Assembly (NCBI GenBank): GCA_010094025.1
Contig: ML991804.1
Location: 186,001 to 250,000 of the forward strand
From: Viridothelium virens
Taxonomy: Eukaryota; Ascomycota; Dothideomycetes; Trypetheliales; Trypetheliaceae
DNA: 64,000 nt
Direction of reading: 5' to 3'
This document shows, piece after piece, positions 5,165-62,250 of this stretch. The notes under the pieces were generated by a model that searched no databases, was not told where the DNA came from, and worked only from the letters and a program-made list of their open reading frames with translations. The stretch's first letter is position 1, and every line of letters starts with the position of its first letter. The translations under genes were made by a program, and so were the position numbers.

Positions 5165-5346
5165 CCTTACCGCGGCTGGGGGGTTCCTCAACTGGTAATT
5201 AACACAATGTTACCTCAGTTTGACTGTTATGACCTTGTTGGTCCATGTTAACACCGCCTTAACATGGGCCAACATGGTTATAACAGTAAAGTCGAAATAA
5301 CATTGTATTAATTACCAGTTGAGGAACCCCCCCAGCCGCGGTACGG
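5165..5346. mobile_element. Foldback MITE-like element, copy 1
   Basis: A 182-bp near-palindrome. The left end begins CCTTACCGCGGCTGGGGGG and the right end is its reverse complement with one mismatch (GGTACGG). The arms match through CCTCAACTGGTAATTAA to a small central loop near GTTAACACCGCC. It is flanked by TG on both sides, a possible 2-bp target duplication. It has no coding capacity. It is one of five copies in the window, and the family resembles non-autonomous TA-targeting DNA transposons. No transposase is visible in the window. Confidence 0.88.
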
Positions 5347-5567
5347 TGCCTTTCAAAGGATGAATCCCTGCGACACCATCACAGATCGACATATCAGCGG
5401 TCTGAACAAATGGGACTAAGCAGCACATTGCGAAGGTGTTAATTTCTTGATAATCAAGGTCCCCTGGAGAGCGGTATGATCTACACGACATGTGTCCGAG
5501 CCGATTTGTCGCTTCCTAATACTCTGTGAATGTATGCTCTCTAATTGCAAAGAAAGGCGAGTGGGGG

Positions 5568-7836
5568 TCACGATTCTTCGGCCGGAATGACCGACTCTTC
5601 TCTCCTAGGCCGCCGCCAACGAACGTCGCCTGCGCTGGATCCTGCATTGGATACCTGACGAGATTTGCCAAAGATGCCGATCCCGTTGCTGAAGATGCTT
5701 GTGTCAAGTAGCTCATCGAGCTCCTCTAATTCATCGACCACAGTTTGGGGCGTGTCGATGTCGAAAACAGCCTGGAGGTCCCCATGCACCGAAAAGCCTG
5801 AAAAATCCCACATGTCACGCCAGGATCGTTTTGTTGCGCCGCTCGGATCCCTAGTCTTCTTTTTCCAAAGGTACCGCCGCTCGTAAAGACTGACGAAGAG
5901 TAAGATCGGAGCATTGAGAAAGCGCACGGCTCCAACGTTGATCTTGTGAAACCACCTAGCTGACAGCACAAACTTCAACGGCAGCATAAGTAAAAGAGCT
6001 AAGATGTTGAAAGGTGGCCGATACGCAAATATAGCGTCACTTTTGACGCCTTCAAAAGTAAGTACCGCTCGACGGAATTGCACCTCTGCAGTTGCATTCG
6101 CGGAGAGCTTGGAAAATGTATTGCTCAGCATCGACACGAGTATAGTCAAGAAGAGTGTGTTGCCCAGGAATGCGAATGTGACAAATAGAACGGGGCCAAG
6201 TAGCCAATGCATTTCTACTGACTTCTGGATACCAGTCCCATCCAGTCCAAACCAGATCCAAAGCATCCATTTACTGATAGTGATCGATGCGTGCTGTCCG
6301 TTACTCAGCCATCGGAGAGAGAGAAGAAATCCCGCAAAGCACCAACCAGCGAGCAACGTCAGGAAGGTAAAATCCGCCATCATTGCCCGAAGAGAAATGA
6401 GCAACATATTTTCGGGCATCAAGTTAAAAGCCAACCGAGGGAGCAGGACAGGCGCACCCATGCAAAGAATATCCAAGGCCTGCTTTCCAATGTCATCACT
6501 TCCCATAGAGAGACCATGCATACGAATGATGAAGTAGCCCGAATAGATAGCAACGAAAGCAATGTCCAAGAAGGACCAGAGATTTTCGGTATGAACTTTC
6601 CAGCCGTGCTCCAGTATGGATGCGAACTCGTCCAGGACCCAGCCTGCGGCATAAATGCAGAAGGCGAGCTCAATGCCCGAAAATGTTAGATGGTCCTGGC
6701 GTCTCTGTCGTGCCTTAGTATTCGATACTTTGCACCATTCTCCATTTGTGGAATGGGACGAGATGGAAGAAAAAATGACTTACTCCCGTCCGATACTCGA
6801 ACACCATGGTAAATAGATAGAGGACTAATAAGATTATAAATTGACAAACTTCGATAATATTACGCGTTCGCGGTACAACAAGGCGATACTGATTGAGTAG
6901 AGGCGCTTTCCTAGGATCGTACAGGGATATTGGCCGAAACTTATAGTGATCAGGTAAAATGTCGATAAAACTCGTTGGTGTGTAGATGATTCGGCCTCGA
7001 TATACACCGTCGACTATCTTCTGGCAAGCAGCTGTGCTCAGGAACGATTTAGACTCTGAGATGATGGCGACCTCCAACGCAGTAAGCATTCGCTCGTAGC
7101 CCGCTCTCCAGAAATGGCCTTTAACACCCCAGGGCAGAACGCGCTTAATCTCTCGGAGAACCTCGGGAGGAGCTTTTTGGAAAGGCTCAAAGCCAGCGAC
7201 GAGAATGTTGGCGAGTAACAACAGCCCTTGACGTCCCTCGTTTTCATCATCAAATCGCCGCAAAACCCTGCTGGCGACAATCTCGCACAGCTGAGCCCGA
7301 GTGAGGTTGACGGTCTGATGATGTGCCTGATAATTCTGCTCGCGAAGGAATTGCACACGATTGACGAGGAGGCAATACACTATCAGGTTTGAGTCAATCG
7401 ATTTCAAGAACAGATTTTTCTTCTCAGTGCGTACCCACCGACAGACACATCATCTGGATCGTACAGATGATCGACCAGAGGTCTTACCACCGCTCCAACC
7501 ATCCTCGGAGATCTCAACTGCTCGGGACTGTACGGGTCATCAATACTTGCAATGACGAGCCTCCGAATGCTGCATTATGTGTTAGTAGAATATGGCAAGC
7601 AGGCCAGTCATCCTTAAGCATCTTTCGCACCGTTGGATTGTCATGTAAACAGGCAACCCAGCATGCGGGTTCTCTACATATGGCCGGTCATCTCGACGGG
7701 GCGGATAGCAGCCGTCGTCATCAGCCTGCTCTTCATCGCCAAGCAAAGTCTCTTGTTCTTCTCTTGAACGGGCTTGTCTCAGAGCTTCAGTGATGCTGCG
7801 AGTACTCTCCAGGCGCTCCATTGCCTGGCGTGCCAT
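5568..7836 (-). CDS. yvc1: TRP-family vacuolar cation channel (Yvc1-like)
   Basis: Predicted calcium-permeable TRP channel of the vacuolar membrane, which releases vacuolar Ca2+ after osmotic or mechanical stimulation. Minus-strand exons are 7836-7631, 7569-7439, 7379-6784 and 6704-5568 (689 codons plus stop). All joins restore family sequence, for example LPVYMTIQRIRRLVIASID and SVVYCLLVNRVQFLREQ. The cytosolic N-terminus (about residues 1-285) is followed by hydrophobic segments IIEVCQFIILLVLYLFTMVF, IELAFCIYAAGWVL, FLDIAFVAIYSGYFII, FTFLTLLAGWCFAGFLLSL and VLFVTFAFLGNTLFLTILV. The C-terminus is acidic (DELEELDELLDTS), as in yeast Yvc1, where acidic residues take part in Ca2+ gating. The length is normal for the family. 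The first in-frame ATG is 7836, and an upstream start cannot be excluded. It is transcribed divergently from the PLAC8 gene. Confidence 0.92.
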
Positions 7837-8704
7837 AACGAGCAAGCTCCCTTACCCACTAGGAAGCGACGATCCTGTTCCAGAGCATTACTGCACGAAA
7901 AACAGAACAGGACTTTGCTGGCGCTTAGGCAATATTGAACGCATCGTCTATCGCGCTGTAAGTGGCTTTCCACAAAAGCAATGTTTACGACGAGTTCCGG
8001 GCCGCACACGATCCTGGCACGGAGCCGAGGTCATGCGATCACGGCCCGATGTTCGCCCCGAAGTGCCTCATCTTGCCGGACTGCTCATCCGCCGCATTTG
8101 GTTTCTTCCAAGGCCTGGCGCTTTCCCCCTTACTCAGGACCTGTTGAGTGCCTTCCGGGATACACGGGGCAATAATGGCAGAATGAGTCCAAAGGTGTTT
8201 CTTCTTTTGGTCTATATTCGAACTTACACCTGGCTCTTCCATGCGACTGTCCCAGCATCACAGCACGGCTGCTAAACTCAAGGCCAATATCGAAGACGGG
8301 GTACGAGTATTTCGTGAATTGTATTCCACAGGCTGGAGGACATACGTTTTCCAATTCTCAATTGAATGTTGGAAAAGCGACAGTATCATTGACGTGCACC
8401 ACTATCTATCTCACACTTGGGTAGCAAGCACGTAGGGAGGGCAAAACTCACAGGAAGTGGCCTGTGACTCCTCGCGACTACGACTACTATGTCGAGGCGA
8501 GCGCAAGCGCCATGGCTCTTTCTTCTTTGGAGTTTCTTGGGATCCTTTCCTCATGCGTTCCGAATACTTCTGCTGTCTTGTCTTTATCACTCCAAATCAC
8601 ATAAGACTTGGTCTGAGATCATTCATTTACTACTGCTATTATTCTCAGCTTTCGACATCTTTACTCCTGCGACACCACGCCAAAGCTTCGCTCTGTAGGC
8701 CGCC
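7837..8704. other. Divergent intergenic region between yvc1 (-) and the PLAC8 gene (+)
   Basis: About 870 bp that must hold both promoters. Several open frames of 60-160 codons exist but none shows a domain or partner exon. No distinct regulatory motif stands out. Confidence 0.5.
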
Positions 8705-9378
8705 ATGCACGAGAAGAAATGGCAGCACAGCTTGATTTTCGGGTGTTACATATGTCGTACGACTACATGTAAGCTGCAACTTCAGCGAGCCTGTTTGTTG
8801 GTGGTTGTTTTCGTGTGTTCTAAGATATTCCATAATGTTCAGGTTGCCTTTCCTGTGTTGGGATGCCCAAGGCATCCGTGCTATTCGGTCAGACCAATTA
8901 TCGTCTTGGTCACCCCGAGGATTCCACAGCTAGGGGTTACCATTGTCCCAATAAGCTTGCAAGTCCTGTCTCTTTGACAAATTTTGTATCTGGCTAACTT
9001 CATATTGTGCAGTGTGCTCTACACTGCCTTGCCACCTACATCTTCTGTCCGCTAGTCTGCTTGATACAATGTACTCAGCGAGGAAACATCCGCCACAGGC
9101 TTGATATAGAGGGATCCGCGTGCAACGACTGCTGCATCTCAATCTTCTGCCCGTGTTGCGAATTGGTTCAGATGGAACACGAGGTCCGAGATTGGCAGAT
9201 ACGCTCTGAAGGATACCATAAGCAACAACAAATGACATATGCCGCATCAGAAACGATCGAACCATCACTCGGACCACCATCATCGCTACACTCACCCGGA
9301 GAACAAACGGGACAAGACCGTTCGCCGGTGACGAGGCAACAATCGATATCGACGGAGAGAAGGCGGACTGGCTCTTGA
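8705..9378 (+). CDS. PLAC8-family cysteine-rich protein
   Basis: Small (about 184 residues) predicted membrane-associated protein. In fungi and plants this family is linked to metal handling and cell-size control; the role here is unknown. Exons are 8705-8768, 8843-about 8967 and 9013-9378. The first splice (GTAAGC donor, TTCAG acceptor) joins WQHSLIFGCYICRTTTC to CLSCVGMPKASVLFGQTN, rebuilding the first cysteine cluster. The last exon gives CALHCLATYIFCPLVCLIQ, a hydrophobic segment, then CNDCCISIFCPCCELVQMEHEV, the second cysteine cluster typical of PLAC8. The C-terminal 55 residues are Ser/Gln-rich and disordered. The donor of intron 2 is the weak point: the in-frame choice (GTCTCT at 8968) gives a 45-bp intron with a good GCTAAC branch site. 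Confidence 0.85.
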
Positions 9379-9645
9379 AGCATGGCAATGAGCTGGCGTA
9401 ATGGCGTTGATATGCAACATGGAGATTGTTCCGTATATTCCCAACCTTGCTCTTCGTTCTTCGAGTCCCTAGTCTCTTCAGGGCTTCCCCATACTATCCT
9501 GCATCCTCACTGCCTCCTCCTCTGTTGGTCCATCATAATCCGGGTCTCGGTAGAAGCAGGTCTCTACCACTAATTTATCCATCAGGACATCTCTGCTGTC
9601 GTAATCGGCACTGGTTGCGCAACATTAGCGCCGACTAAGCTTAAA

Positions 9646-11570
9646 TCATGCATGAAGTTCCTTCCAGCCACTGTGACTTCATCTCAGCAGTACCAACTCT
9701 CATTCGATCATAATGATGCCCACGACACACAAGAGATGCAGGTTCGAGTTACTTACCAAGCCGACCTTGCTTTGCGACCCTGTAGTCGGCCGTAATACAT
9801 GCCTGCCCAATGTTCACGGATGTTGTCATATCTGTTGATTTAGTCAGCCACTGGCCGCACTACTGGGACGAAGAACACGCTGTCTCATTCCTCCTTGCTT
9901 TTTGCATCAGCCACGGCAGGTCAGACATACCTAAGATACGCAATGAGTACTCGTCCATCGTGTGGTGAATGTTGATCGATGAAAATAGTTAACCCTACTC
10001 TGCTTCGTCCCCCGCGAAAGTCGTGTCTCTTCTTCAGTGCTGTCCACATATCCTCCGCACTACCATCTACGTCTCTCTCCCATGGAACGAAGCAGTAGAT
10101 CTTGTCTCGGATTCTATGGTCCAGAGACCCATCGTCCAGATCGCGACGACAATGGAGCTCGTCCAGTACTGCTTGATTTTGTTCCTCATTCAAGTTCCTT
10201 GTCAAGTAGAACACTGCTGGAACGGATGTCAGGTAGTGCACTATCGGACCGGGATCACGAGGGTTCGTCGCAATCGCCGGTAGCCATGGAGGCAAGTCAG
10301 GAGGAATCGGGGCTAGAGGGTCAAGTAGCTGTTCCTCGAATTTGCCGTCGGGCAACCCCCCGTCCACAATTAGATCAACGAACATCGTCCAATCATCCTC
10401 ATCCTCGAAGCGATCACCCCAGCTCTGCAGACACTCGGTAAGTGAGCCACGCCGTAATAAAATCGGATTGTCAAAGTACCACTGCGCCCAGACAAGGTTA
10501 TGCTCTTCTGATGTTGGCAAATCGATGAGGAATGTGCACATGGCATAGATATAACGATTTGCACCTGTATGGTTGCTGCCGAGATATCGTTTAACTAGTC
10601 TCATGATATCTCTGCGATTCGCTGGTGAATGGATCTTCCACTGATGAATGAATATCTTCCCTTCCCACTCAATTGACTTGGTATTATTGGCCTGTTGAGC
10701 AGCATTCTCAAGTATCTTGTGGGCTTCACTGAGTCGGTCTGGCGTGAGATGGACAAGACTTATCACATCAAGTCGTCCAGGCTTTGGATCGAGCTTAGCT
10801 GGAACCGTTGTCAAGTCTTCAAGGGGTCTATCTTGCTCGACCAAAGTTTCAATATGCTGTTTGATCTCTAGTGGTAATAGTGGCTTCGTTCCGAGCGCCT
10901 GAACCGAAGTTTTGGCCAAGTCTTGAAAGAATTCATCGTCCGTAAATATCCGTCCAAGCGGATTGGAGAGGTATAATCCCTTTTCGTATAGATCGCCCGT
11001 GTATGGTATCCCTCCTTGTTCTATTCCACTAGTTCTGAAGTCTCGCGATTGCCCTCCTCTACCCAACTCCTTCCAATCCTTGAGACCAGTATCGAGAATC
11101 TCTTCAATAGCGGCGCGAAGCAGCAGTCGCCTAACGAAGAATGTGGAGGGATTAGGCCTCTGGTCCTCGGAAGCAGGCTTCAGATGGACAACAATGGCAG
11201 TAACCCCATCGACTTCGCCTACCCTTGCCTCTCCTCTTAATTGTCGGTCGGTCAGGTCATCAAGGACAAGGATGCTAGGCCATTCCCTATCGCGAGCTTT
11301 TTGTGCTGCTTTGTAAATATCTGTGAGCGTCCCTTCTGCTCCGAACTCGCTTTTCTCAACGTGAAGTATGGGGACGAAAGTAGGTCTTGCCTTAGATGCA
11401 AGCTCTTGTAATACCTCATACACTTTGCTCCTGACTACTGACTGCTTTGCTGAATCGACCAACGAACGTCCAAGAAGTGCTACAAGCAAAGACGGTGGAG
11501 TTTCGTGATCCACGGCTTTTTTGCGAGATTTCGGAATCGCACTCGAAATGAAAGCGCTCGATGAAACCAT
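9646..11570 (-). CDS. Conserved-looking protein of unknown function
   Basis: About 579 residues. Exons are 11570-9931, 9831-9757 and 9670-9646. The two 3' introns have GTATGT and GTAAGT donors, and the frame closes exactly. The longer open frame begins at a TTG; the first ATG is 11570 (MVSSSAFISS). I do not recognise the family. Visible parts are an N-terminal block with alternating hydrophobic strands (LLVALLGRSLVDSAKQ, WPSILVLDDLTDRQ, VTAIVVHLKP), a central helical acidic region, and a C-terminal block (KIYCFVPWERDVDG, RVGLTIFIDQHSPHDG, VLIAYLRYDNIREHW) that repeats the same strand-turn-strand character. There are no membrane segments and no signal peptide. It diverges from the FAD monooxygenase across a 304-bp gap. 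Confidence 0.82.
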
Positions 11571-11874
11571 GATCACCAAATTAAAGCACAACTCGAGACA
11601 AGGTTTTCCTTTCAAACAAGATGAAAAAAGGTAAAGAAAACAAGAAGCAACTGAAACCTTGGATTTTACCCACAGCTCCTGGAGAGCAGGCTTTGTTTAC
11701 TGCCTTAGGCAGCTGTCCGCTGGCATTCATGGTAGCCATACGGCAGGCGCCGGGACCACATCGCCAAGGAAACCTGCAGAAACCTTGCGAGAACTACCTG
11801 AGTCGTTCCGGTGAACGTTGTCTCTGCAATTTCCTACAAGACCGGTGTCTATACGGGCAAAGCGATTGTCGGTC
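11571..11874. promoter_or_regulatory. Shared divergent promoter region
   Basis: The 304 bp between the starts of the unknown protein (-) and the TetX-like monooxygenase (+) must serve both. No clear TATA box or binding site is visible. An open frame running through it on the plus strand begins at non-ATG codons and is not needed. Confidence 0.4.
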
Positions 11875-15149: not shown

Positions 15150-15330
15150 CCTTACGGCGGCTGGGGGGTTCCTCAACTGGTAATTAATACAATGTTACCT
15201 CGGTTTAACTGTTATGACCATGTTGGCCTATGTTAGGGCGGTGTTAACATAGACCAACAAGGTCATAACAGCAAAATCAAAATAACATTATATTAGTTAC
15301 CAGTCGAGGAACCCCCCAGCCGCCGTAAGG
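15150..15330. mobile_element. Foldback MITE-like element, copy 2
   Basis: 181 bp, flanked by TA on both sides (15148-15149 and 15331-15332). Ends are CCTTACGGCGGC and GCCGCCGTAAGG, a perfect inverted match. The C-to-G difference from copy 3 at position 7 is mirrored in the other arm. Transcribed with the thioesterase 3' UTR, it would fold into one long hairpin. Confidence 0.92.
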
Positions 15331-16210: not shown

Positions 16211-19200
16211 TTACTCTTGAGACCCGTTTCTTAAGTCCATGTGATACATCGCCAATACTTCTTCTAAAATCAATCGATTGGGGTGATCTTGCGCGAGCTT
16301 CACCCGTTGTACGTTAACAACGTGCTCTAGCAGCCGGACCGCCTCTAATTTCTGCCCATTCGTATGATATGCTCGGGCTAGCTCATGCCGCGACGCCAGG
16401 CGGCCTGGGTGGTCCTCTGCTAGTGTCTCTCTTACTGCAGTAACGTGCTCCAGTAACTGAATTGCCTCTGCTACCTGTCCATTTGCATGATATGCTCTGG
16501 CTAGCTCGTGCTGCGACATTAGCCGATTTGGGTGGTCCTCTGCTAGTGTCTGATTTATTGTAGTAACATGCTCCAGTAGCTGAATTGCCTCTGCTATCTG
16601 TCCATTTGCATGATATGCTGAAGCTAGCTCATGCTGCGACGTTAGCCGCCATGCGTTGTCCTCTGCTAGAGCACTCCGTACTTTAACAACATACTCCAAT
16701 AGCTGAATCGCCTCTGCTATCTGTCCATTTACATGATATGCTGAAGCCAGCTCATGCTGCGCCGATAGCCGATTTGGGTGGTCCTCTGCTAGTGTCTGAT
16801 TTATTGTAGTAACATGCTCCAGTAGCTGAATCGCCTCTGCTATCTGTCCATTGGTATGATATACTCTGGCTAGCTCATACTGCGCCGATAGCCGCGCTGG
16901 GTGGTCCTCTGCCAGCGAACTCCGTATTTCAACAACATGCTCTAATAGCTGAATCGCCTCTGCCAGCTGTCCATTGGTATGATATACACTGGCTAGCTCA
17001 TGCTGTGATACTAGCTGTTCTGGGTGGTCCTCTGCTAGCGAACTCCGTATTTCAACAACATGCTCTAATAGCTGAACTGCCTCTGATACCTGTCCGTTTT
17101 GGGCATATGCTACAGCTAGATCGTGTCGTGAGGATAGCAGTTCTGGGTGATTTTCTGACATTATTTTTCCGTATGTTGCAACAACATACTTAAGCAGTTG
17201 AATCGCTTCTGGTACCTGTGCACTCTTGAGATATGTTCTAGACAATTGACGCTTCCGTAATAGCAGGCTTGGATGATCCTCTGACAGTGTTCTTCCGCTT
17301 GTTGCAACAACATGCTCTAGCAGTGGAACCGCTTCTGGTATTTGTCCATTTCGATCATATGTGTAAGCTAGTGCAAATTGTGATTCTAATCGGACTGGGT
17401 GATCTTCTTTTAAACTTTTCTCCGTCCAGCCGCAGGCTTCTTCCGCCCATGCAACAGCCTCCTTATACCTTCCGTCGTGCATGAGGCAATGCACAACACT
17501 AAGACACAGCCGACTCCATGTCTCTGTCTCAATTTCTCGCCCTTGCTGGCAAATTCGTACAACGTGTGGAAGATATAGCCTCCACACTGGCTGCGTTTCG
17601 AAACTGACGTAAGGAAATGCGTCGGCAAGGTCATCTATCGCCTCCGCGGTAATCTTTCTAGCAAGACCATTGTCCTTAACCCATAGCTTCTTTGCTGTGT
17701 GCACTAAACTGTGTATATCGTACACGTCGTTGTCGTCACGTCGGACTATAAATGAATATGCGCAAAGCGTCCCGATAGCGCTCTCTAGTCGCTCTTCCGG
17801 TTGAAGCGCTGGTAACATTGACCGTGGTATTGCTTTTGGCTCTATGCATGACATGAATGAGAAGAGCTCCATTGCTGCTGCATCGTGTCTACGAATTTGC
17901 TCAAACGACACCGCCCACGTCCTGGCGATCGCATTCACTGACTTTGCGTATCGCGTATCATCGCGGAACTCCTTAGTGATGAGATTCGCGAGATCCTGCT
18001 CCGTGTTCCTTAGTAGCTTCAGATACCGTGAGAGAGTTATCTTGTTTGTGTTGATATATGAAGCTGCCTGCGTCATCGCCAGTGGGATTGAGTTAAGCTC
18101 ATCGAGAAGTTCAGTCAAGATGGGCTCATCGTGGGCTAAGTCTTTTCGAATTAGTAATTTCTCAAACATTTGTTGACGTTCATCTTGGTCCATTTTTACC
18201 AACTCAAGGACGTTGCTACGTGCTAACGATAGGGCGATTTCTTGGTGACGGGTGGTGATCAGGATTAGCCCGTCCTCGCTTTGCGGCAAGTAATTCGCCA
18301 TTCCTCGAGACTGTTCTGCGTGATTGTTGAATAGTAGCTCCTCATCATCGGCATTGTCGAGTACCAAAAGCCACTTCCCGGCCTGCTTAGAGCTTAGATA
18401 GGACTGCATTATTTCCTTCACATTCGCATCCGAACCCCCCCCAATTCTTCGGCTTTTCCGTAGCTCTCTCAGTATCTCGTCACATGCCTGCTGGAAACTT
18501 TCGGAGCTCAAGGCTGACACCCAGAAAATTGAATATTCCGGCCTGTTTTCTTTGAGAGCGTAGACAAACTCGAGAGCCACTTGGGTCTTCCCAATACCGC
18601 CCAGGCCAGCGAGGGATACTTTCTGGCAATCGCCATCTATAAGGAGTCTCTGCCTGAGCTCCTGAAGCGTGGTACCGCGGCCTGTGAACTGTCGATTTCG
18701 GAGGAATGGGATATAGTGTACAGGGGGACGTGTGTCTGCAATAGCATCAGTACATTCTCAGATAAGCTATAACCATGATCCAAAACTTGGTAACATTGCA
18801 GGTGGCCGATGATTTTGTGCGGTAGGGTACCTTACCGCGGCTGGGGGGTTCCTCAACTGGCAATCAATACAATGTTACATCAGTTTAATTGTTATGACCA
18901 TGTTGGCCCATGTTAAGGCGGCGTTAACATGCACCAACAAGGTCATAACAGTAAAGTCGAAATAACATTGTATTGATTGCCAGTTGAGAAACCCCCTAGC
19001 CGCGGTAAGGTAGCTATTAGTAAAGGATGATCGCGATGTGGACCATCGTGTGACAGAATGCAAAATTGGCAGAGACGTTAAATTTTCGCTATGTTCTGTT
19101 GAATCCCTACAAGGGTCCTTCCCGAACATCTGGATCGAGTATTGGCTGCATCCAATGTTACCAAACTTTGGTCCATATATACTAACCATTTGATGTTTCA

Positions 19201-20147
19201 CTCAATGTGCGTATCTTTGTAACGTCCGGCGGCGGTATAACGCAGAGCACCTCCTTTGCGTACCCGGCTGCTGTCCCCGCGGCATACGACTGCCACCTCT
19301 TGTTTTTATGCGAGTCTGCATAATCGCAGATTCCACGAATTACAAGACAGGGAAAGGTGTTCATGAGGCCAGCCGCCTCCATTTCGAAGCAGAGTACGCC
19401 GCCGAGGTCAGCGCTGACATTATCCCTCTGTACTCCATACTTCATAACCTGATTGCCCGACGCGATTGTGCCGTAGTGTACAGCCAGCTCGCTGGGGCGT
19501 GCCTTCCGGTCTTTAGCATTGGCTAGGTTATAAGGCTTTGTCGGATCATCCTCGTGATTATATGTAGCTTCGAACAAGACGTCTTCACCAGCATTCTCCC
19601 GCAAAAATTGGGAGTTGGTGGCGCTTAGATTCGATACATGCTCTGAAAGCCTACTCTTTCTTCGAAATTCTCTCGCTCGTACTCTAGCGATCGCACTTAG
19701 GAGGATGGAAGGAGGGGAGTTCAGGTGTCCGGTTCGTTCGAAGCCGCTCGGGTTGGTTTTGCCGAAGTCGTACTGCACCACGCCGCCGAAAGTGCTGTTA
19801 GGTTGTCCAACTACTACGTCTCCCAGTCGAATGTCCACCTCTGCGCTTGGGACGCCGCCGCCGATTCCAACCATAAGGCCGAACCGGAGCCCTCGGAATG
19901 TCGCCTTCATCTGAGTAGCGACCGCTGCCGCTGAATTGTTACCTGTCCGCCCAGCAGGTAGGCATCCAATCACGACATTGTGGCCGCAAATCGACCCTAC
20001 ACTATATATGTTATCGTCATTCTCATCCTGCAGGTCTTCCAGAGCCTTGTGTTCCTCATCCAGCATCTCTTCCGCCGCTGCCAACTCAATAGGTAGGACA
20101 CACACCCATCCCACGGTATACTCATTGCGTGCAAGTTGACGTGCCAT
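16211..20147 (-). CDS. NLR/STAND receptor: PNP-NB-ARC-TPR
   Basis: Predicted intracellular sensor of the fungal NLR class, about 1161 residues. Exons are 20147-19187 and 18735-16211. The 451-bp intron has a GTTAGT donor and TTGCAG acceptor, and joins SETSN-D-TRPPVHYIPFLRNRQ in frame. Residues about 8-315 form a purine-nucleoside-phosphorylase/MTAN-like domain (VGWVCVLPIELAAAE, MVGIGGGVPS, CFEMEAAGLMN). NB-ARC follows, with P-loop GLGGIGKT (about 364-371), Walker B WLLVLDNADD, ITTRHQ and SIPLAMTQAASYI. From about residue 743 come ten TPR-like units of 41-42 residues. PNP domains in this class may hydrolyse nucleotides or act as the effector; NB-ARC is the ATP switch and TPRs the sensor. The intron is unusually long and contains foldback copy 3. 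The open frame extends upstream but starts at TTG, so ATG 20147 is used. Confidence 0.9.
16355..17092 (-). repeat. Six near-identical 123-bp TPR-coding repeats
   Basis: Units 4-9 of the NLR sensor each code for 41 residues of the pattern Q(I/V)AEAIQLLEHV...LAEDHP.RL..QHELA.AYH.NG. Units 6 and 8 share the interior TTINQTLAEDHPNRL. The DNA identity is high enough to suggest recent duplication or gene conversion, and the array may vary in copy number between strains. Confidence 0.88.
18830..19010. mobile_element. Foldback MITE-like element, copy 3 (inside NLR intron)
   Basis: 181 bp with TA on both sides (18828-18829 and 19011-19012). Ends are CCTTACCGCGGC and GCCGCGGTAAGG, perfectly complementary. 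Private changes TGGCAATCAATAC in the left arm are mirrored as GTATTGATTGCCA in the right arm. It lies within the 451-bp intron between the PNP and NB-ARC exons of the NLR, so removing it with one TA would leave a 268-bp intron. Confidence 0.93.
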
Positions 20148-30885: not shown

Positions 30886-32469
30886 CTATTGATGCCCATG
30901 CTTCCCATAGCCAGCATCCAGAAGCTGTTGTTGGATTCTCGCATCTGCGGATAATGGATGGTGAGATGTGCTGCTGGAACCCTCATCGGGTGCGTGATGC
31001 TCAAGATTTGAAGCATAGAGTAGGTCCGGCCTTGAACTTGCTCCGTTATCGAAGGATAAGCTATGTGAAGCCTGCTGTTCCTTTTCCTGCGGTTGATATT
31101 GCGTGGTAGACGGAGAAGACTGATGATAGTCGTAGTGCTCAATCCCTTCCATAATTCGGGGATCGACAGGCATCTCATAATTCTGAGCACGAGACATATT
31201 CGCCATTGGCGCTCGATATTGCTGATTTTCGTTTGCCTGGATAATAGGTGATAACTGGTCGGCATGATCTTGGAGGACGGTAGTGTCGTCTGCTCCTTGC
31301 TTGGGTCCCAAGGTATTTGGCGTTTCGAGTTGTGTTTCACCACGCATTGCAGCTGCTCGAGCAACCTGAGTTTTACAATCGTGACAATTTCGAATGACTT
31401 GATTGGCAGTCTCCTTGATTCGAACCCAATGATATTTCTCGGCGATGACAGCAGTAGTCTTATTGATACCGGCATGGTGTTCGCAATGGATCTTGCGAGC
31501 AATTTCATACTGCTTTTGAGGTTCTGAGATGACCTCCTTTCCCTTAAGCATTAGTCGCTCTGGCTCTTCGTTTGTCTCTGGTATGAGCTTGTAATGTGTA
31601 GCAGCGCTCCGAAGCCGACTTTTCTCTGCGCGATCTGCTCCGTCCGGGTATTTGCCATGTTTTAGATAATACCGAATTTTATCGAATCGCTCCTCAGACA
31701 CGTATTCTTCACTGTCGGGACCAAGATCACGACCGTAGACTATCGCGTCGACGAGTTCGTCTGGGTACGACCGGAGGGCACCGGCGCCTTTGACCCGGCC
31801 AATGCGTTTGAATCCCAGCGCATCCCATATTCGGAGCGAGGCGACATTTGTCTCATAGACAAGATTGAAGACAGAATATGCATACCCCTAGGAAGTTAGT
31901 ACAAAGCAGAGTGTATTTCCAAGGCAACGTTTGGGCCATACCAGCCTGGGAGCCCAATCCAGATAAATCTCCCCCATCAATCTACCAACACCTCGATTTC
32001 GGGCTGCATCTGTGACCAAGAACCCACCATTGCAGACATGACTTGACCTCCCAGGATAGTTGGGTTTGATGTAGAAGCTACCTAGACATTGCTTTTCCCA
32101 ATCAGAGCCATTCAACTCCATCTGTCGAACTTCTTCCCTATCTTTGATCTCGCCTAACAGCATCACGGCACCAAAATTGGCGAACCAATAAGGACCGAAG
32201 GTTTCCAACGGCAATGGATCCAGCATTGGGTAGGTATCTCCCTTTTCGATTTCACGATTCAATAGGGCGCCAAGATAGGACAGAAGTGCAGGAGGCACCT
32301 GATCGGGAGAGGAGAAGGGCATCAGGGTAGCAGCTGTGACACGGTCTCTTAATGTGACCTGACGAGGCGTAATTTCTGGAGGCAGCTCCCCGTACAGCGC
32401 TGGGAACGGCGGAACTCCAGAGCGGCGAGAAACCAGCCTCGCAGTCGGATCATCTAGCATTGCAGGCAT
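30886..32469 (-). CDS. spt10: Spt10-like GNAT protein with integrase-type HHCC zinc finger
   Basis: About 509 residues. Exons are 32469-31942 and 31887-30886, joined as LDWAPRL-GYAYSVFNLVYETN. The N-terminal half is a GNAT acetyltransferase fold: GSFYIKPNYPGRSSHVCNGG, then the acetyl-CoA loop RNRGVGRLMGEIYLDWAP, and NVASLRIWDALGFKRIGRV. The C-terminal half carries H-E-H-H-AG-INKT-TAVIAEKYHW followed by C-H-D-C, the HHCC zinc-binding fold of retro-element integrases. This domain pair is diagnostic of Spt10, which in yeast activates histone genes by binding their upstream elements through that finger. The C-terminal 130 residues are Gln/Ser-rich. The open frame extends upstream from a GTG; ATG 32469 is the first in frame, directly after a possible acceptor (TGGCAG), so a 5' UTR intron is possible. 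Confidence 0.85.
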
Positions 32470-48273: not shown

Positions 48274-48456
48274 TCTTACGGCGGCTAGGGCGTATCTCAA
48301 CTGGTAAATCATACAATGTTACCTTCGTTTGACTGTTATGACCATGTTGGCCCATGTTAAGGCGGTGTTAATATGGACAAACAAGGTTATAACAGTAAAG
48401 TCGAAATAATATTGTATCAATTACCAGTTGAGGAACCCCCCCCAGCCGCTGTAAGG
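48274..48456. mobile_element. Foldback MITE-like element, copy 4
   Basis: 183 bp flanked by TA (48272-48273 and 48457-48458). Its ends are more diverged (TCTTACGGCGGC and GCCGCTGTAAGG) and the left arm has several changes near TAGGGCGTATCTC, so this looks like the oldest full-length copy. It lies between the aquaporin and NLR 3' ends. Confidence 0.9.
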
Positions 48457-48869: not shown

Positions 48870-51800
48870 CTATGCACTCACATGAAAGCAGCAATTGCAC
48901 CAATAACCTTCGTGGCGTTTACCATGGACTCGCATAGTATCTTCGCCAGTGTCTAGTAGAGACATAGAATGTTCGGAAAGCTCTTTGAGCATCTCCCCCT
49001 TTCCATGGAAGATAGCGACAGAAATAGAGCTCCAGTGGCCTGCTGGCCTGGAAACGGCAACATTGGTACTGTGGACGCCTTTCTCAATCAGTTTCTCTAC
49101 GAGATGGGGATTTCCCTTTCTACAGGCCCAGTGAATAGGGGTCCAATATTCGCTCTGCGTGCGGGAGACACGATCCATATCTAGTACCGCGTTGAGAATC
49201 TCCAATGAACCTCCAGACGAAGCATAATGTAAAAGGTTTTCTCCCTTTAAGTCGGTCATTGCAGGATCAATGCCTAGACGGAGGAGATACTGGAAGGCGT
49301 TGAAATGCCCGCCTCTGGCAGCAAGATGAAGAGGCGTTCGACCGTGCCGTTCAATTAGAAGTGGGGCTTCATAGTTATGATCGTAGATTAAGCGCAATAG
49401 ATCCGTATGACCCTTGAAGGCAATGAGGTGCAGGGAGGAACCATAGCGACAGTCAAGAGATCTTAGATGAGAACCAGCGTCCAGAAGGAGCTTCACGACT
49501 CCGATAGAGCCGCTGGCACAGGCCGCCCCAAGTGCGTTCGTAAAGGGTCCGCCCTGCGCATCTATGTTGATGCCCTTGTCAAGCAGCAGCCTCACAATTG
49601 GCTCGTAGCCTTTCTCGGAAGCTGCTATCAGCGCATTATCAGAGAATTCATCCCGTGCATTAACGTCAGCGCCCTTATCAAGCAGCAACCTTACAATCTG
49701 CCCATGGCCTTTCAAGGAAGCTGCTATAAGCGCATTACCAGAGAATTTATCCTGTGCATTAACATCGGCGCCCTTGTCAAGCAGCAACCTCACAATCTGC
49801 TCGTGTCCCTCTAATGCAGCTTCCTCAAGGGCGTTACCATAGTCCCCACCCTGTGAATTAACGTCGGCGCCCTTATTGAGTAGTAGCTTCACCATCTCGT
49901 AATACCCATGCTTTGCCGCAAGGTATAGTGGAGTCTGACCGTGGCTATCCTTACTGGCAAGTGCGGTCGCTCCCTCGTGAATTTGTCGTGCCAGTATCTT
50001 CTCTGATGTGAGACATAACCCAAATCTGGCAATTAGATGCAGACCTGTCGTGTTCTTGGCATAATCCTGGCTGTAGCCCTTGTATTTGTAAGCTGAAGGC
50101 CGCAATGCCTGTGTAGCACATGAAACTAATCCTTCATGGAGGAGAAATGAACAAATCTGCTCACACACCCCATCTTCAACTGTTATTGCATGCTCTCCCC
50201 AGTGCTTGGCAGCATAGTCTAGGAATTGGTTTTGCCGAAGCCTTTCTTCAAACTCTTCGTCAGTGGCACTACTACCAGATTTGAAAGCATCAAAGCATAG
50301 GTAGGTAAGCCACGTTGACGTGATTTCAAGCAGAGCACTAGGGTTCCATTGTTCCATAATGCGTTCAAAGTATTCCTGTGTCGTGCAGTGCACAAGACGG
50401 ACTATAGCACTCTCCGGGTCGATCACAACAAGGCCGGCGCATACTGATACCAAGTCTTCAATGTCAGGTACATTGTCTGGGTCAAGTTCCACATCTTCTG
50501 GCTCTACTGCTAAAGCACAGCATAGCTCAGCCGTAGTTGGGGGCCTCTTCGCGTAAGTAATCCAAGAGAGGACCTTCTTTGCTTGTTCCAGGTCGCCACT
50601 CAGCTGACCTTCTATCCTTTGAATAGCCTCTCTATATGCATCATCGAGTGTGACCGAGCCTTTGGAGAGCCTTGTTACAGTTGACTTCACATCTTTTGGT
50701 GTTCTCTTATCCAGGAGCGAGTCTGTATATAGGCGGGCGAGAAGGAACCTAAGAACCAGTAAGCCTATTCCAACTTCCAGCAAGCAGAGATCAAAGCTTA
50801 CATGCCGTTTACTGCCTCTGTTATCTCTTCTTGCACCATCTTTTGTAAAGCAGCGTCACGCCGAATGCATCTTGGCAGCCTGTAAACCTGACCAGCTATA
50901 AACCTCTTCACGTCCTCGTCCCTTGCCCGTATCTCTAGGGTTAGCACTAATTCAAAGTCATTGCTAATGTCCGGAATGATACGCGAGGTGATCATTAGGC
51001 GTATATCTGTCTCAGCTTGCAGGTCCATAACTTTGGCTAGAAAGAAGCGACGAGTGCCATCATTGTCGCGACACTCATCTACAGCATCGATTACGACGTA
51101 CACAGAACAGAACGTTGCAAGTACGTATCTTAGAGCCGCAAAGATCTCGTCAAATGATGGCCTCGTCCCCCGATGGGCATGCTGCACGTACAACCGTTCC
51201 ACAGGCTCCTTAAGCGAAGACCGGCTCTGTATCAGCTGCTTGGGAATAGCCGCAAGCAGATCAATAGCACTGTGCTCTTCCTGAGTCTTGTAGTTGCAGT
51301 ATATATAAGCGATTCCGACGGAGTTGCTTTGTACTGTCTTCAATAAGTGCTCGATTGCGGTGGCTGCTATTATAGTCTTGCCGGCCCCAGGAATACCCGG
51401 GCAGAAAAGCGTTCCTTTCGGCTGTCTAAGCCACTGTGCTACCTTGGAAGTGCTAAGAAACCACTCGCCAGTCCCTTGCTGCCTACGGCTAATGACATCG
51501 GATTGTTGCGCGGGATAGTCCGTCGGTCAGATCCATGCCATGAGCTTGTTATGTTGTGCAAGGTCGGCTTCACGCCGTGTATAGCTAGTGACGTCCTTTA
51601 TAGCTTCCGTATTACTGCGGGTTACATCTCCGCTCTCTTTTATGGCTTGAGATAGTTTACTACATACGTTAGCGACCTTATTAGAATGTAGTCAAACACT
51701 GATATCGGAACTAACAAGTGATCCATTTGCAATGCGACCTCTATCAATGTCTTCAGGCGCTCCATACGGCTTACTATACTGGCAATCTCCTCTTTCTTGA

Positions 51801-56650: not shown

Positions 56651-57458
56651 GAACCGGGAGGAATCAACAGAAACATGGGAGAAAGGGAGACGAGGATCGA
56701 AATTGATTAGTTACTAGGCGTTAGTTAAAGGTCTGCGTTTTCCTCAAAGCTTATTATGGCTCAATGAAGGTACCGTACCCAGTATTTGTCCACAGTGAGA
56801 ACTCATAGCGCTACCACTCTTGGACACTACTACAGTCACAATGTATCCAAATTCTTTGGGCACCACAATCATAAAGTATCCAAATTCCATCCGATGGGTC
56901 AGAATCGATAAGTGGAGAAAGCTTTAGAACCCGAAAAAAACGTCTGACACAAAACGAATGTATCCGGTGGTACTAGTAGCCATTTGAGCCGATTATTCAT
57001 GGGACTGCAGGACTCTTCTGTAAAGATGAAGCAAGCCTTTTGACATATCGCAGGATAGAAGGAGCATAAAAGGCACAATACCTAGTCTGTATTTTTTGAG
57101 ATGATTTCGCTTCGCGCACAGCCATTCTCATGTTCTGGGAAGTCTCCGCTGCGTTGTGGGAGCGTAAGGATAGTGGACAATGCGTTAAGCTGAAGAAAAA
57201 CAGGGAAAAGCTGCGCATTGGCCAATGGATCGGCTCTCCACCACTTTCCAACAAAGCTGGGGTCACGAAAAGCAGTTCGGCAACTTCAGCAGCTTCGGCA
57301 ACAGCGCCACCAGGAGGCAGTTCGACAAGCGCAAAATTGACAGCTTCTACAAGTGTCAAGTATAGTATGGCAGGTCATGTTCAATGCGCAACGGTGTGAC
57401 ATATGCATCGTATTTGATAGTCGTTGGGCCAGCCGTCCCAAGGTACCCAAACGGGTGT
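56651..57458. other. Intergenic stretch
   Basis: About 800 bp. An Ala/Ser-rich open frame exists on each strand near 57130-57400, driven by a GCAACTTCAGCAGCTTCGG-like repeat. Neither is supported as a gene. Confidence 0.45.
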
Positions 57459-57980
57459 CTATCTTGTCATGAAGGCTGGATCGGCCCTAACGGATTGACC
57501 TGAGTTCCATTCCTCTGTGCGCGCTAGATACTCGGCGCTCGATGGGTCTTTGAGGAGGTCTGGCCCGTCGACTGCATCCAATAAGAAGGTTTTCAGGTTG
57601 TTCGACTTGGTCGAGTTATCCCCCGCGACTGTGTCTCAAATGATGTGATTAATTCCCATCTGTCGGTCTCGGCGCTAACTTGTTTGGCAATTTAGATCAA
57701 CTGGAGGAACTTCAGATCCCAATTCCATAATTATGTGATCGGAGCTCTTCCAAGCTGCACTCGGATGTGCTCTCATCCCCTTCCTGGCTTGGAGGATGAG
57801 AGTTTAGAATGGCTAACTCGACATCGTCTGTGAGATTTTTCTCCGTTAGGAAGCAGAGACCCTGCGATTTGAATTTCTTCTGGACAGCGGGATTTTCAAC
57901 TACAAATCCGATATCATCGATTGGGCAAATTTCCAGGACAGACGTGGGTAGCCCCAGATTGCGACGATAATGGCTGAGTT
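57459..57980 (-). pseudogene. Remnant of a highly reducing polyketide synthase (KR end and linker)
   Basis: Two coding-like blocks without start codons (57980-57712 and 57630-57459). The first reads HYRRNLGLPTSVLEICPIDD, GFVVENPAVQKKFKSQGLCF and LTEKNLTDDVELAILNS. This is the pattern of the C-terminal end of the ketoreductase domain in fungal reducing polyketide synthases, just before the acyl carrier domain. The second reads NLKTFLLDAVDGPDLLKDPS and SAEYLAR, resembling the KR-to-ACP linker. No ketosynthase, acyltransferase or ACP is visible nearby, so this is a fragment of about 150 codons, broken and not functional by itself. The family assignment is from memory of the motif, not from a search. 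Confidence 0.55.
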
Positions 57981-58818
57981 TCCTCTCTTCTCATCCTACT
58001 TCGGCTAGGCTCTCAGATCACATTCCGTAGGCTTCGCAGCAAGTCATAGACCGATCATGAAGGAATATCACATGGTGGGAATTCGATACAAGTTCTACAG
58101 ATCTGTGTAGAAATGACAGACCTGCGTAGAGGTCAAAGAGACCTGCATAAAAGCGAGAGACCTGCGTAGAAGATAGGGACCTACGCAGAGATGAGGGACC
58201 CGCGTAGACGCGAGGGACCCGCGTAGAGATGGGAGTCGACCCGAGCAGGGATGAAAAGGCCATACAGAGGACGTATAGAACCAACAAAAAAAAGGACTTC
58301 TCATGTATTGTAGAGTTAGTGGCAGCCTCTCACCAATCCAGACACGACACACGCGGCCGCACCGAGAACTTGTGGAGAACAACGGGCTGAACTTGTTCTG
58401 TCCATTTAATCAAGCAACCAAAAATTCCTGGAAGAAGGGAAATAAAAAAAGACTCGCCCGGCAGGATACGGTCGCTTTACGCTCAGCAAAATCCATGCGG
58501 GCAATACTCAATTGGTTGATTCGGAACGCTGGTTTCTTCATTGATACATGGATCTGAGGGTTTGGTAAGGGTGCTGCGTCAGCGCCTCCGCCCGAGCCCG
58601 AGGGGCGACATTTTACATTTGCTCCGCATTCATCACAGCGAGACCTCAGTATTCCTTGGGAATAAATAGAAAGGATAGAGCCCGTAAGTAATTCCATTGT
58701 GATCGCAGCTATCAATCCATCTTCATCCACCATAAGGAATTTCTGACCTCACTCGCAATTCATACCTTATCTGGAGACAATTTGCTCCTCTACTCCATAC
58801 TCTACTCAACACCCCACC
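57981..58818. other. Upstream region of the MDR gene
   Basis: About 840 bp containing the 19-bp minisatellite at 58108-58242 (listed separately) and presumably the MDR promoter. No gene is supported. Confidence 0.5.
58108..58242. repeat. 19-bp tandem repeat (about 6.5 units)
   Basis: Units of the form TAGAgatgaGGGACCCGCG start at 58108, 58127, 58148, 58167, 58186, 58205 and 58224. All are 19 bp except one of 21 bp. Divergence is about 10-30 % between units, with the 3' units most alike. It lies directly upstream of the MDR gene and next to the polyketide-synthase remnant. Confidence 0.85.
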
Positions 58819-59817
58819 ATGCGCGCCCTCCAACTCACCAGACCCTCCCCCACCCAACCCCCGAACCTCTTTCTCGTCACCCTCCCCACCCCCACCCCCA
58901 GCACGACGCACCTCCTCATCCGCATCACCGCCTCCTACATCAACCCCTCCGACCTCCTCAACCGCAAAGGCGGCTTCCCATACACCACCTTCCCACGCGT
59001 CCCCGGCCGCGACTTCGCCGGCACCATCGAAGCCGCGCCCCCCTCTTCCTCCTCTACCTCCTCCCCCGCCTTCAAACCCGGCGACCGCGTCTTCGGCACC
59101 TCGGGCTCCGTCCTCTCCTTCACCGCCGACGGCGCCCACGCCGAGTACCTCCTCGCGCCCGCCTCGGGGCTCGTCGCGACCCCCGCGGCGCTGACCGACG
59201 CCCAGGCCGCCATGGTCGGGACGCCGTATGCGACGGCGGCGCAGGCGGTAGGGGCGGCGCGTGTAAGGGAGGGCGAGACGGTACTGGTGCTCGGGGCGAG
59301 TGGGGCGGTGGGGAGCGCCGCGGTGCAGATTGCGGAGGCGGCGGGGGCGCGGGTGCTGCGCGGGGCGAGGGGGGCGGAGGGGCGGGATGCGGTGGATTTG
59401 GCGAGGGATGCTGGGTTGAGTGGGGTAGTGGGGGAGTTGACGGCGGGGAAGGGGGTGGATGTGGTGGTGAATACGGTGGGGGATGTGGCGTTGCAGGAGG
59501 CGGCGTTGGGGGTGTTGGCGTTGCGTGGCAGGTTGAGCTTTATTTCGGCGCCGAGAGGGGAGAGTGATGAGTTTAGCTTTCATTTGACGTCATTTTATCG
59601 GAAGGGGTTGAGTATTATTGGGATTAATTCGTTGATGATGACGCTGGAGGAGGGAGCGCAGAGTTTGAAGGAGTTGGTGCCATTATTTGAGCAGGGCAAG
59701 CTACGAGTACTTGGTGAAGAGAAGTTGACGAAGGTCTCGCTAGAGCAAGCCGTTGATGCGTATGAAGATATGGGAAAGGGTTCGCGAAAAAAATACCTGA
59801 TTCTCAATCAAGAGTAA
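58819..59817 (+). CDS. MDR-type quinone oxidoreductase / zinc-independent alcohol dehydrogenase
   Basis: Single exon, 332 residues. Predicted NADPH-dependent oxidoreductase reducing quinones or enones. The GroES-like N-terminal domain has SYINPSDLLNRKGGFPYTTF, PRVPGRDFAGTIE and FKPGDRVFGTSG. The cofactor domain has VLVLGASGAVGSAAVQIAEA (the AxGxxG-type loop), and the C-terminus is YEDMGKGSRKKYLILNQE. Catalytic and structural zinc cysteines are absent, as in quinone oxidoreductases. The composition is extreme: codons 1-130 use C in third position almost everywhere, codons about 135-235 use G, and the last 85 codons are mixed and AT-richer. Long mirror open frames on both strands arise from this and are not genes. 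It sits next to the MFS transporter and a polyketide-synthase remnant, so a secondary-metabolism role is possible. Confidence 0.92.
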   Translation: MRALQLTRPSPTQPPNLFLVTLPTPTPSTTHLLIRITASYINPSDLLNRKGGFPYTTFPRVPGRDFAGTIEAAPPSSSSTSSPAFKPGDRVFGTSGSVLSFTADGAHAEYLLAPASGLVATPAALTDAQAAMVGTPYATAAQAVGAARVREGETVLVLGASGAVGSAAVQIAEAAGARVLRGARGAEGRDAVDLARDAGLSGVVGELTAGKGVDVVVNTVGDVALQEAALGVLALRGRLSFISAPRGESDEFSFHLTSFYRKGLSIIGINSLMMTLEEGAQSLKELVPLFEQGKLRVLGEEKLTKVSLEQAVDAYEDMGKGSRKKYLILNQE

Positions 59818-60218
59818 ATTTGGGTAACGAATGGTGAATAAAGCGACAGTAATCGAATAATGGCACGTTCTTTGATCAACTGTGTAATACATATGGAATC
59901 GAAAGCGATTATGCTTCATGTACGGCTTCCTGTTCATACCTTTGTTTTGTGGGATAATTCCCATTTGTGTGTCTTTCCATGCCTTAACTCCCTGCTATCT
60001 GGTACCCAAGCGAAAGTAGCGCAGAAACTATCACACTAATCTATTTGCTGACTGCATTAGTGGTCTGGAAGTCTGTCCCTCATGAGTTTCCTGATGCGGG
60101 GCATTTCGTTGAATTTTGTGACTCATTTCGGTACTGCTCATAAGGCTTTGTACCGACCTGTAGGCAATCTGCTTCTTTGACGACCGTCCAAGCAGAGCAA
60201 CTAAAACGAGTTCACACA
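59818..60218. other. Spacer between MDR and MFS genes
   Basis: About 400 bp; AT-rich 3' flank of the MDR gene and promoter of the transporter. No gene is visible. Confidence 0.45.
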
Positions 60219-61843
60219 ATGGGAGAGCGCCACGATTTGGACTTCGAGCTAAACTCCCTTGCCGGCGAGAGGTTTCCTGATGACAATCCTGACGCGAGAC
60301 CGGAGTTTTCTCTTCCAAGAGCAGACGGAGGAAGACGGGCATGGGCATTTCTGCTGGCCGCTTTCGTTGCGGAAGCAATAGTGTATATGAGCATCCACAA
60401 CAATTCTCTGCTGCGCAAACTTAATGTCTTCCTAGGTGGGGTTTCCCGTATTCATTCGGTGTTTTTGAGAGGTATTATTCCACACATAAACCCTTCTCAG
60501 AAGATCCGTCTGGTATTGCTGCAATTGCAACAACCGCGACTGGAATCATGTATTTGGTGTCTCCCCTCCTTTTATCTATTCTCCAAAGATGGCCTCGGTA
60601 TCGTCGCACTTCCTCTGTGGCTGGTCTTGCAATCATGGTCCTGTCTCTCGTTGCCGCTTCGTTCGCCAAGTCGACTTTGCAGCTCCTCCTGACGCAAGGT
60701 GTACTGTAAGTTATCGCCTCCCATTTTGGTACCCTGCGAGTGAATTTTCAATAAATGCGCTAAATACAGTTCAGGTTCGCTATAGGAGGAGCAGTCTTCT
60801 ACTGTATGTTTAACCCCAACCTGGACTTACCACGGATGCAACTAATCTCGGTCATGGCACTTAGATCCAGCCGTCCTCTTTCTCGATGAGTGGTTTGTTC
60901 GACGTAAGGGTCTAGCTTTCGGGACGATGTGGGCCGGCACAGGAGCTTCTGGAGTAGCAATCCCATTTATCACTGGATGGCTCCTCGACAACTATGGTCA
61001 TCGAACTGCGCTGCAAGTATGGGGAGTTGTCACGGTGAGCTGTTTTCGAGGGCTCGCAAAGAACGAGCATGCTAATCCTCATCGTGTGCTCGACTAGGCC
61101 GTGGCGTCCATTCCGTGTCTGTTTTTCATCAAGGGAAGGCTTCCAATCGCAGGTAGCAGTGGTCCACGACGCAATGACTTTAGCTTTGTGGCCAGTCCGG
61201 CCTTCTGGTTTCTGCAAGCGGGTAATTTCTCCCTCAATTTGGGTTACTCGTTGCCGGGCATCTATATGTCATCATATGCAGCTGCAGAAGGATTTTCGGG
61301 CTTAAGCGGAACCCTTGCCATCTCATTTTTTAACGCCGCAGCAGCGATTGGAGGTATTCTGGCTGGCTTGCTTATTGACAGATTCCACGTAACAACGGTG
61401 ACCGCCATATGTGGCATAGGTGGCGCCTTGGCCGTCCTGCTCGTTTGGGGATTTGCAGTCTCAGAGCCTATCCTCTACGTCTTCGCTATCCTTTATGGTA
61501 CTTTTGCGGGGAGTTTCAGCACAACCGTAAGTTCGACGATTCCTCACCATTTTCTGAAGAGAAAGCTTAAACCTCGAGACAGTGGTCTGGTTGTGCCAAC
61601 GCTCTCAGAAGTCGTGGAAGGACCGTAGAGACAGGCAGCGTCATGTCTTTGCTGATAGCTGCGAAGGGAATTGGAGCTGTCGTCAGTGGTCCTCTTAGTT
61701 CCGCGTTGATTCGAGCAGCGCCGTGGAAAGGGACGGCGATTGGAGCGTACGGCAGTTCATATGGAGGTCTCGTAGTTTTCACAGGCATCACGAGCTTCCT
61801 TGGGGCCGCGAGCTTTGGAGGTCGATTGCTTGGATTTGTCTGA
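60219..61843 (+). CDS. MFS transporter, monocarboxylate-transporter-like
   Basis: Predicted plasma-membrane transporter of about 440 residues with twelve membrane spans. Exons are 60219-60382, 60436-60705, 60775-60803, 60865-61034, 61098-61526 and 61583-61843. All joins keep frame, for example AEAIV-WGFPYSFGVFERYY and GSFSTT-WSGCANALRSRG. The MCT-type first-helix motif is present as RAWAFLLAAFVAEAIVWGFP, and the loop between helices 4 and 5 reads DEWFVRRKGLAFGTMWAGTG, typical of fungal MCT-like (Mch) proteins. Substrates in this group include monocarboxylates, riboflavin and secondary metabolites; which applies here is unknown. Exon 3 is only 29 bp. It follows the MDR oxidoreductase on the same strand. 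Confidence 0.92.
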
Positions 61844-62145
61844 TCTGCGTAGAGCTGCAGGTTCAGCGTAGAACCCACCAATGGGGAAGTTTGGGATGAG
61901 ATAGGAGTCGCCGCTGCAAGCGACGATGTTCGGTTCATGGTGGAAGGAATACGGTCTCGATAGGAGTCCTAGCCTCAACAGAGAAATCGTGGCACATAGA
62001 GAAGAACTCCGTGGAATGTTCCGATGGGTGATAAGCTGCGAGGCATAATTGCACGCCAATAGGGCAACGAGGCGTGGTCGACGCACATCCCCCGGATTGC
62101 CGGTCATACATATAGATGCATATCTCGGGGTAGTACTGGTGGTCA
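61844..62145. other. Spacer after the MFS gene
   Basis: About 300 bp of 3' flank ending at foldback copy 5. No gene is visible. Confidence 0.4.
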
Positions 62146-62250
62146 CCTTACCGCGGCTGGGGGGTTCCTCAACTGGTAGTTAACACAATGTTATCTCAGT
62201 TTAACTGTTATGACCATGTTGGCCCATGTCAAGGCGGTGCCGCGGTAAGG
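62146..62250. mobile_element. Foldback MITE-like element, copy 5 (internally deleted)
   Basis: 105 bp. The left arm is intact from CCTTACCGCGGC through the central AAGGCGGTG. The right arm is missing except for its last 11 bp (CCGCGGTAAGG). Flanks are CA on the left and TA on the right. Retention of both termini with loss of most of one arm points to an internal deletion after or during transposition. Confidence 0.88.

Follow-up and report, generated by a model that had tools for sequence, protein, structure and literature searches.

The window analysed here, a stretch of 64,000 nucleotides from Viridothelium virens (C34:186001-250000), carries five members of a family of short hairpin-shaped sequences without genes. 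It appears probable that they are miniature inverted-repeat transposable elements (MITEs), i.e. non-autonomous transposons of ~181 bp with a TA target and a transposase supplied from elsewhere—likely of the Tc1/mariner superfamily—in which one arm is copied to the other or the two are exchanged. Hairpin-shaped gene-less elements are as such a known kind, the new part of the finding being the evolution of the arms: bases of the two outer arms are correlated, and the family contains near-symmetric copies, copies with inverted centres, and elements with a variant arm on one side or on both.

Anatomy and number of the elements

The initial annotation of the window, made from its letters alone, pointed to five related stretches, and these were borne out by a repeat search of the window, which recovered four full copies and one shorter fifth:

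Copy 1, 5165..5346, no strand assigned: 182 bp, full; flanked by TG on either side; centre TTAACACCGCCTTAA, in inverted orientation to that of copies 2 and 3; identical with C34_191165
Copy 2, 15150..15330, no strand assigned: 181 bp, full; TA on both sides; centre TTAGGGCGGTGTTAA
Copy 3, 18830..19010, no strand assigned: 181 bp, full; TA on both sides; centre TTAAGGCGGCGTTAA; in the putative intron of an NLR-like gene
Copy 4, 48274..48456, no strand assigned: 183 bp, full, more diverged; start TCTTAC; TA on both sides
Copy 5, 62146..62250, no strand assigned: 105 bp, deleted; one arm is whole, and of the other the terminal 11 bp remain; flanked by CA and TA

The CCTTAC termini that had been ascribed to them are present at 8/10 ends; copy 48274 begins with TCTTAC instead, and copy 5165 has GTACGG at its right end. 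Concerning the body, described as one long inverted repeat, the four full copies are indeed near-full-length palindromes of ~181 bp, whereas the fifth holds just one arm and 11 bp. Flanking TA, assigned to most copies, occurs on both sides in 3/5 (15150, 18830 and 48274), but not in 5165 (TG/TG) or 62146 (CA/TA).

For the family as a whole, 95 copies were present in the fetched loci and 84 full ones were aligned, the 11 others being left out because of truncation, rearrangement, a length above 192 bp or a position at the edge of a locus. It should be noted that the sample was drawn from the best-preserved ends and is therefore biased to intact copies; the loci L134 and L135 lie outside the 84. 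The length is exactly 181 bp in 63/84 full copies (range 179-191). The element consists of two 48-bp terminal inverted repeats (TIRs) flanking an imperfectly palindromic middle of 85 bp, which is too short to code for a transposase; the long arms seen at the outset are thus perfect in the consensus over their outer 48 bp, but contain 10 mismatches among the inner 42 pairs. The short uniform length, the TIRs and the lack of room for a transposase are those of a MITE. The mean divergence from the consensus is 7% in the 84 copies, so that the main burst of amplification was probably not very recent. C-to-T changes amount to 6.6% where A follows, 6.1% where G follows, 4.4% for T and 3.8% for C, i.e. 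a bias resembling repeat-induced point mutation (RIP) is mild at most.

A whole-genome search, suggested as a check along with the initial annotation, covered 30.7 Mb in 175 contigs. A 31-base end pattern (up to 3 mismatches) gave 277 matches (139 forward, 138 reverse) versus none for the reversed-pattern control; a second pattern, covering positions 18-48, gave 148 and 155 matches, its control again none. Among the matches listed, at least 136 distinct places on 53 contigs are occupied, truncated copies included, and C75:41812 was found later, outside these 136. If each copy contributes 1.2 passing ends (as in the window, 6/10 ends) or 1.8 (as in the sample, 151/168 ends), the 277 ends correspond to about 150-230 copies, or 5-7.5 per Mb versus 78 per Mb in the window. 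The hundreds of copies predicted at the outset are therefore about right, whereas the thousands, given as the upper end of that prediction, are an overestimate.

Within contigs the copies are clustered, the median distance to the nearest neighbour being 18.8 kb versus 39.1 kb simulated, with 2/1000 simulations as low, among the copies listed. Three pairs lie only ~80-220 bp apart (C7:328162-328622, C68:97311-97753 and C16:225698-226277), which suggests local hopping or preferred regions. The MITE flanks at L108 (C16, ~223378-223448) and L089 (C85, ~3168-3236) have a 71-bp stretch in common with 76% identity, perhaps another small repeat. Two short internally deleted copies, C13:287335-287413 (79 bp) and C3:585142 (~106 bp), retain TA on both sides. 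Viral and prokaryote contigs contained no exact match to a 24-base end pattern, and a literature search for the end sequences returned only papers unrelated by title.

Target site and candidate mobiliser

TA is found on both sides of 65/84 full copies; the 2-bp flanks are identical in 71/84, the 3-bp flanks in 0/84. Six of the identical pairs are not TA—CA, CA, CA, AA, AA and GA, with copy 5165 (TG/TG on the + strand) among them—and this argues for a true 2-bp target-site duplication, as expected of a MITE, and not for TA as a part of the element. Together with the consistent ends and the uniform length, these flanks support the foldback MITE with a TA target envisaged by the initial annotation. 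The preference extends beyond the dinucleotide, with A at position -5 in 56% of flanks, T disfavoured at -3 (10%), and TA at -6/-5 in 45/168 flanks versus 9, 14 and 8 at three other offsets.

Empty sites were sought for 28 copies (12 + 16), 27 of them among the 84. The joined flanks of C30:60684 led to a colinear paralogous site on C136 with a single TA (76% identity over 160 bp); this site is partly minisatellite and weak alone, but agrees with a 2-bp duplication. One further match, for C3:308363, was one-sided. That a two-flank empty site was obtained for 1/28 copies only, at such identity and partly within a minisatellite, counts against the preferred explanation. In the locus L133 (C136:28100-28665), where a contig ends, a short spacer is bordered on either side by 12-bp minisatellites (CTCTGCGTAGGT and its complement).

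Mobility would be of the cut-and-paste type, with a transposase from another source inserting the elements at TA and, in rare cases, at a different dinucleotide. Searches with transposase profiles gave 15 DDE_1 and 7 DDE_3 matches in the genome, and ends of the CCTTAC type (up to 3 mismatches) accompany 0/22 of them within up to 1.5 kb of flank, which is a point against the preferred explanation. The longer element with the same termini and a transposase, proposed earlier as the object of a search, was accordingly absent from these 22 loci; the claim that the mobilising transposase is not present is consistent with this, albeit unproved, given the few families searched and an assembly of 175 contigs. 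An 18-base end pattern allowing up to 5 mismatches did match at 10/22 loci, but the matches are scattered, all with 4-5 mismatches, and were taken as chance, no control having been run. A wide pair of ends, C30:203559+ and C30:206462-, was rejected as a longer element, being two separate 181-bp copies; wide pairs were read by eye among the matches listed (100 each of 277, 303 and 129), and a parent element could be among the others. The Transposase_1 profile had 0 genome matches, its controls matching nowhere either, and DDE_Tnp_4 also had 0.

Seven of the transposase loci possess inverted ends of their own (37-54 bp). TA borders the outer edge of each end in five of these, namely the DDE_1 loci L040, L045, L048, L049 and L050. 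Stop codons, TAG/TAA for the most part, interrupt 12/15 DDE_1 matches (L039-L053), a pattern in line with RIP-like decay, while L043 lies within an open frame of 533 aa.

The mobiliser is most likely a member of the Tc1/mariner superfamily, a best guess made because of the TA duplication and the 48-bp length of the TIRs. In Sclerotinia sclerotiorum, the Tc1-mariner elements have TA duplications and TIRs of 36-70 bp, a range that includes the outer 48 bp here, according to the part of that study cited (PMC4188875). An enzyme from another superfamily with a 2-bp duplication, compatible with the remainder of the explanation, is unlikely, albeit not strongly so: 6/71 identical flank pairs are not TA, and the CCTTAC end differs from the terminal ACGT of all the Sclerotinia families but one, TcMar-Pogo, in the same part of the study (PMC4188875), whereas the other 65/71 pairs are TA and resident DDE_1 elements combine long TIRs with TA outer edges. 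The hallmarks of PIF/Harbinger (Tourist-like) elements are a 3-bp duplication and a DDE_Tnp_4 transposase, and neither was found here.

Correlated arms and their possible origin

Prior to the arm tests all copies were oriented by asymmetric inner sites, the null being whole right arms shuffled among copies. In the outer 48 pairs, the same derived base is present in both arms 62 times versus 23.2 ± 3.7 expected (maximum 37; reached by 0/2000 shuffles), and without site 7, with shuffling within site-7 classes, 33 times versus 12.0 (maximum 24; 0/2000). The site pair 7/175 is the first of 3240 by mutual information; in the pairs 29/153, 32/150 and 36/146 each site has the other at rank 1 or 2 of 80, and for 5/8 polymorphic outer pairs it is among the five best-linked sites from both sides. 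Further inward, the pair 88/94 is second overall in linkage because of the inverted centres, and in 73/109 the partner, too, holds ranks 1 and 2, yet no copy has the derived base in both of its arms. The co-variation of the arms was absent from the initial annotation, as was the inverted centre of copy 5165, which is readable directly against copy 15150 inside the window.

Single copies illustrate the same. Counted over sites 1-75, the arms differ at 0 positions in C85:31626, 2 in C14:391979 and 3 in C1:874910, the next lowest value being 8 and the median of the 84 copies 13; sites 49-58 include six asymmetric pairs, and each of the three copies is symmetric at every one of them. The change G45C occurs in both arms of C14:391979 and in no other arm of the 84 copies. 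In 6/84 copies, copy 5165 included, the centre (88-94) has the opposite orientation to sites 49-58, and the switch points vary. The arms of C30:203561-203741 differ at 2/90 pairs only (sites 5 and 88) and share ten changes that neither consensus arm shows, including the common site-7 variant. A pattern made for this variant arm (up to 3 mismatches) is found five times in the genome: in both arms of C30:203561-203741 and of C75:41812-41992, and in the left arm alone of C30:206298-206478, the right arm of which is an exact match to the standard pattern. Seven outer changes are common to all five variant arms, and identical changes in both arms could hardly have come from independent mutation, while the copying or exchange of a whole arm can explain them. 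The flanks of C30:203561 bear no meaningful similarity to those of C30:206298 or C75:41812.

Several results weigh against such exchange. The inner symmetric sites have 17 shared derived bases versus 11.3 expected, a value reached by 98/2000 shuffles, and 3/8 polymorphic outer pairs (37, 39 and 41) lack linkage to the partner. The copies share ancestry, so the cells in the arm counts are not independent events. The shuffle test of the 49-58 block was uninformative (4 observed versus 3.5), because the block has one and the same form in almost every right arm, and the symmetric block in the three copies above could be the ancestral state. Finally, C75:41812-41992 is decayed: its arms mismatch at 17 pairs, its left end is ruined and its flanks do not match.

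The principal competing explanation, also adverse to exchange, is an assembly artefact, in which reads from one arm also served to build the opposite one, thus producing false symmetry and flipped centres. Palindromes of such size are hard to assemble, but the artefact is quite unlikely: the variant arm appears at three places, once opposite a standard arm, the symmetric C30:203561 still has arm differences at sites 5 and 88, and 15/84 copies are discordant between the arms at site 7. Very unlikely is an ordinary foldback MITE without any exchange, its shared states stemming from a few old subfamilies and parallel mutation. The copies are indeed related, a number of shared states (G or C at site 7, and those at 29 and 36) recur in many of them, and the unlinked outer pairs agree with it; even an inherited shared state, however, requires a change in both arms once, and there remain private shared changes (G45C in one copy, nine besides site 7 in C30:203561) as well as the one-sided variant arm of C30:206298. 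That the hairpin is kept by selection as RNA—a small-RNA precursor or other structured RNA—is extremely improbable, despite a very stable predicted hairpin (copy 15150-15330 folds into a single one at -70.7 kcal/mol as DNA, z -15.7, and -123.2 kcal/mol as RNA, z -17.2, with 0/200 shuffles as good in either case; the mean predicted RNA energy of the 84 copies is -115.8 kcal/mol), since the overall arm pairing of 0.814 is near the 0.811 of shuffled arms (sd 0.002, maximum 0.816 of 300, before re-orientation), Rfam shows no family at gathering score anywhere in the window, and the arms disagree in more cells of the inner symmetric part (13.2%) than of the outer one (8.0%). As to the Dicer substrate named in the initial annotation, the hairpin that might be processed is a predicted one.

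Under the preferred explanation, arm-to-arm copying or exchange, the process would be gene conversion or template switching, triggered by the palindrome folding back or by the repair of a break at the element end. A change in one arm would thereby reach the other, the centre would sometimes become inverted, and the arms of most copies would later drift apart. Exchange within one element cannot be told from that between elements, because any arm could stand in for that of any other copy. That the effect is concentrated in the outer 48 bp is in keeping with copying initiated at the termini, or with selection acting jointly on the two TIRs, and symmetric tracts reaching site 75 suggest that the process is able to run further inward. 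Near-perfect foldback MITEs are usually regarded as symmetric by origin. The bolder proposal, which stands at about even chances, is that the palindrome is renewed and not a relic: the arms would repeatedly overwrite each other from the ends, and new symmetric subfamilies would arise via one-armed intermediates such as C30:206298.

Genomic surroundings and related systems

One copy of the window lies within a gene, copy 18830-19010 being positioned between the PNP_UDP_1 (nucleoside-phosphorylase-like) part and the P-loop/TPR part, with phase-compatible intron borders:

Putative intron, 18736..19186, minus strand: 451 bp, GTTAGT...TTGCAG, phase 1; holds copy 3; delimited by eye from reading frames
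NLR-like gene, 16211..20147, minus strand: PNP_UDP_1 (open reading frame (ORF) 19182-20147), P-loop region, TPR repeats (ORF 16211-18409)

PNP_UDP_1 and TPR were assigned by Pfam, while NB-ARC/P-loop is our own reading. In general, the insertion points fall in frames of at least 100 codons in 25/80 cases, compared with 72% for random points and 68% for TA points, a rough contrast, as the control comes from this window only.

The TPR repeats of the NLR-like gene comprise, at 16319-17179, six overlapping 246-nt copies spaced by 123 nt, with 68-80% identity to the first, which suggests a fairly recent expansion. Elsewhere in the window, an ankyrin-repeat ORF contains three tandem units of 99 bp at 49553-49849, the other two being 66% and 78% identical to the first, and an ORF of 221 aa on the minus strand (30886-31551), whose only Pfam match is an H2C2 zinc finger/integrase zinc-binding domain, is possibly a domesticated retroelement fragment.

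As to known systems, the Fusarium mimp and plant Stowaway MITEs are likewise TA-flanked and present in many copies; the ends of both differ from those of the present family, and mimps are not known to be full-length palindromes. The closest structural analogue is Made1, the human mariner MITE of 80 bp with two 37-bp TIRs and a 6-bp middle, likewise a short near-perfect non-coding palindrome and the source of hsa-mir-548; as presented in the cited portion of that work, Made1 is mariner-derived and has an autonomous relative, Hsmar1, and microRNAs, whereas the family here is 181 bp long, gave no parent element in the searches above and bears signs of arm exchange (PMC1784062). The six Sclerotinia MITEs in the text cited measure 481-813 bp versus ~181 bp here (PMC4188875). 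Galileo of Drosophila willistoni (P superfamily) resembles the family in its dynamic inverted repeats and palindromic target motif, and template switching has been invoked for its defective copies; it differs, to the extent covered by the cited excerpt, in a 7-8 bp target duplication, transposase-bearing copies and other ends (PMC4168063). The human Y palindrome P6, in the section of the study referred to, also has arms kept alike by conversion, with rare inversions, but is a large chromosomal palindrome and not a mobile element (PMC3723533).

Among the open PMC papers listed, judged by titles and abstract openings, no description of arm conversion in MITEs was found. Since arms of the standard/standard, variant/standard and variant/variant type occur in one genome, the order of events becomes readable from the sequence, and arm-to-arm copying is thereby testable in a very small element. 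If true, the renewed palindrome would be a miniature mobile counterpart of the conversion known from sex-chromosome palindromes.

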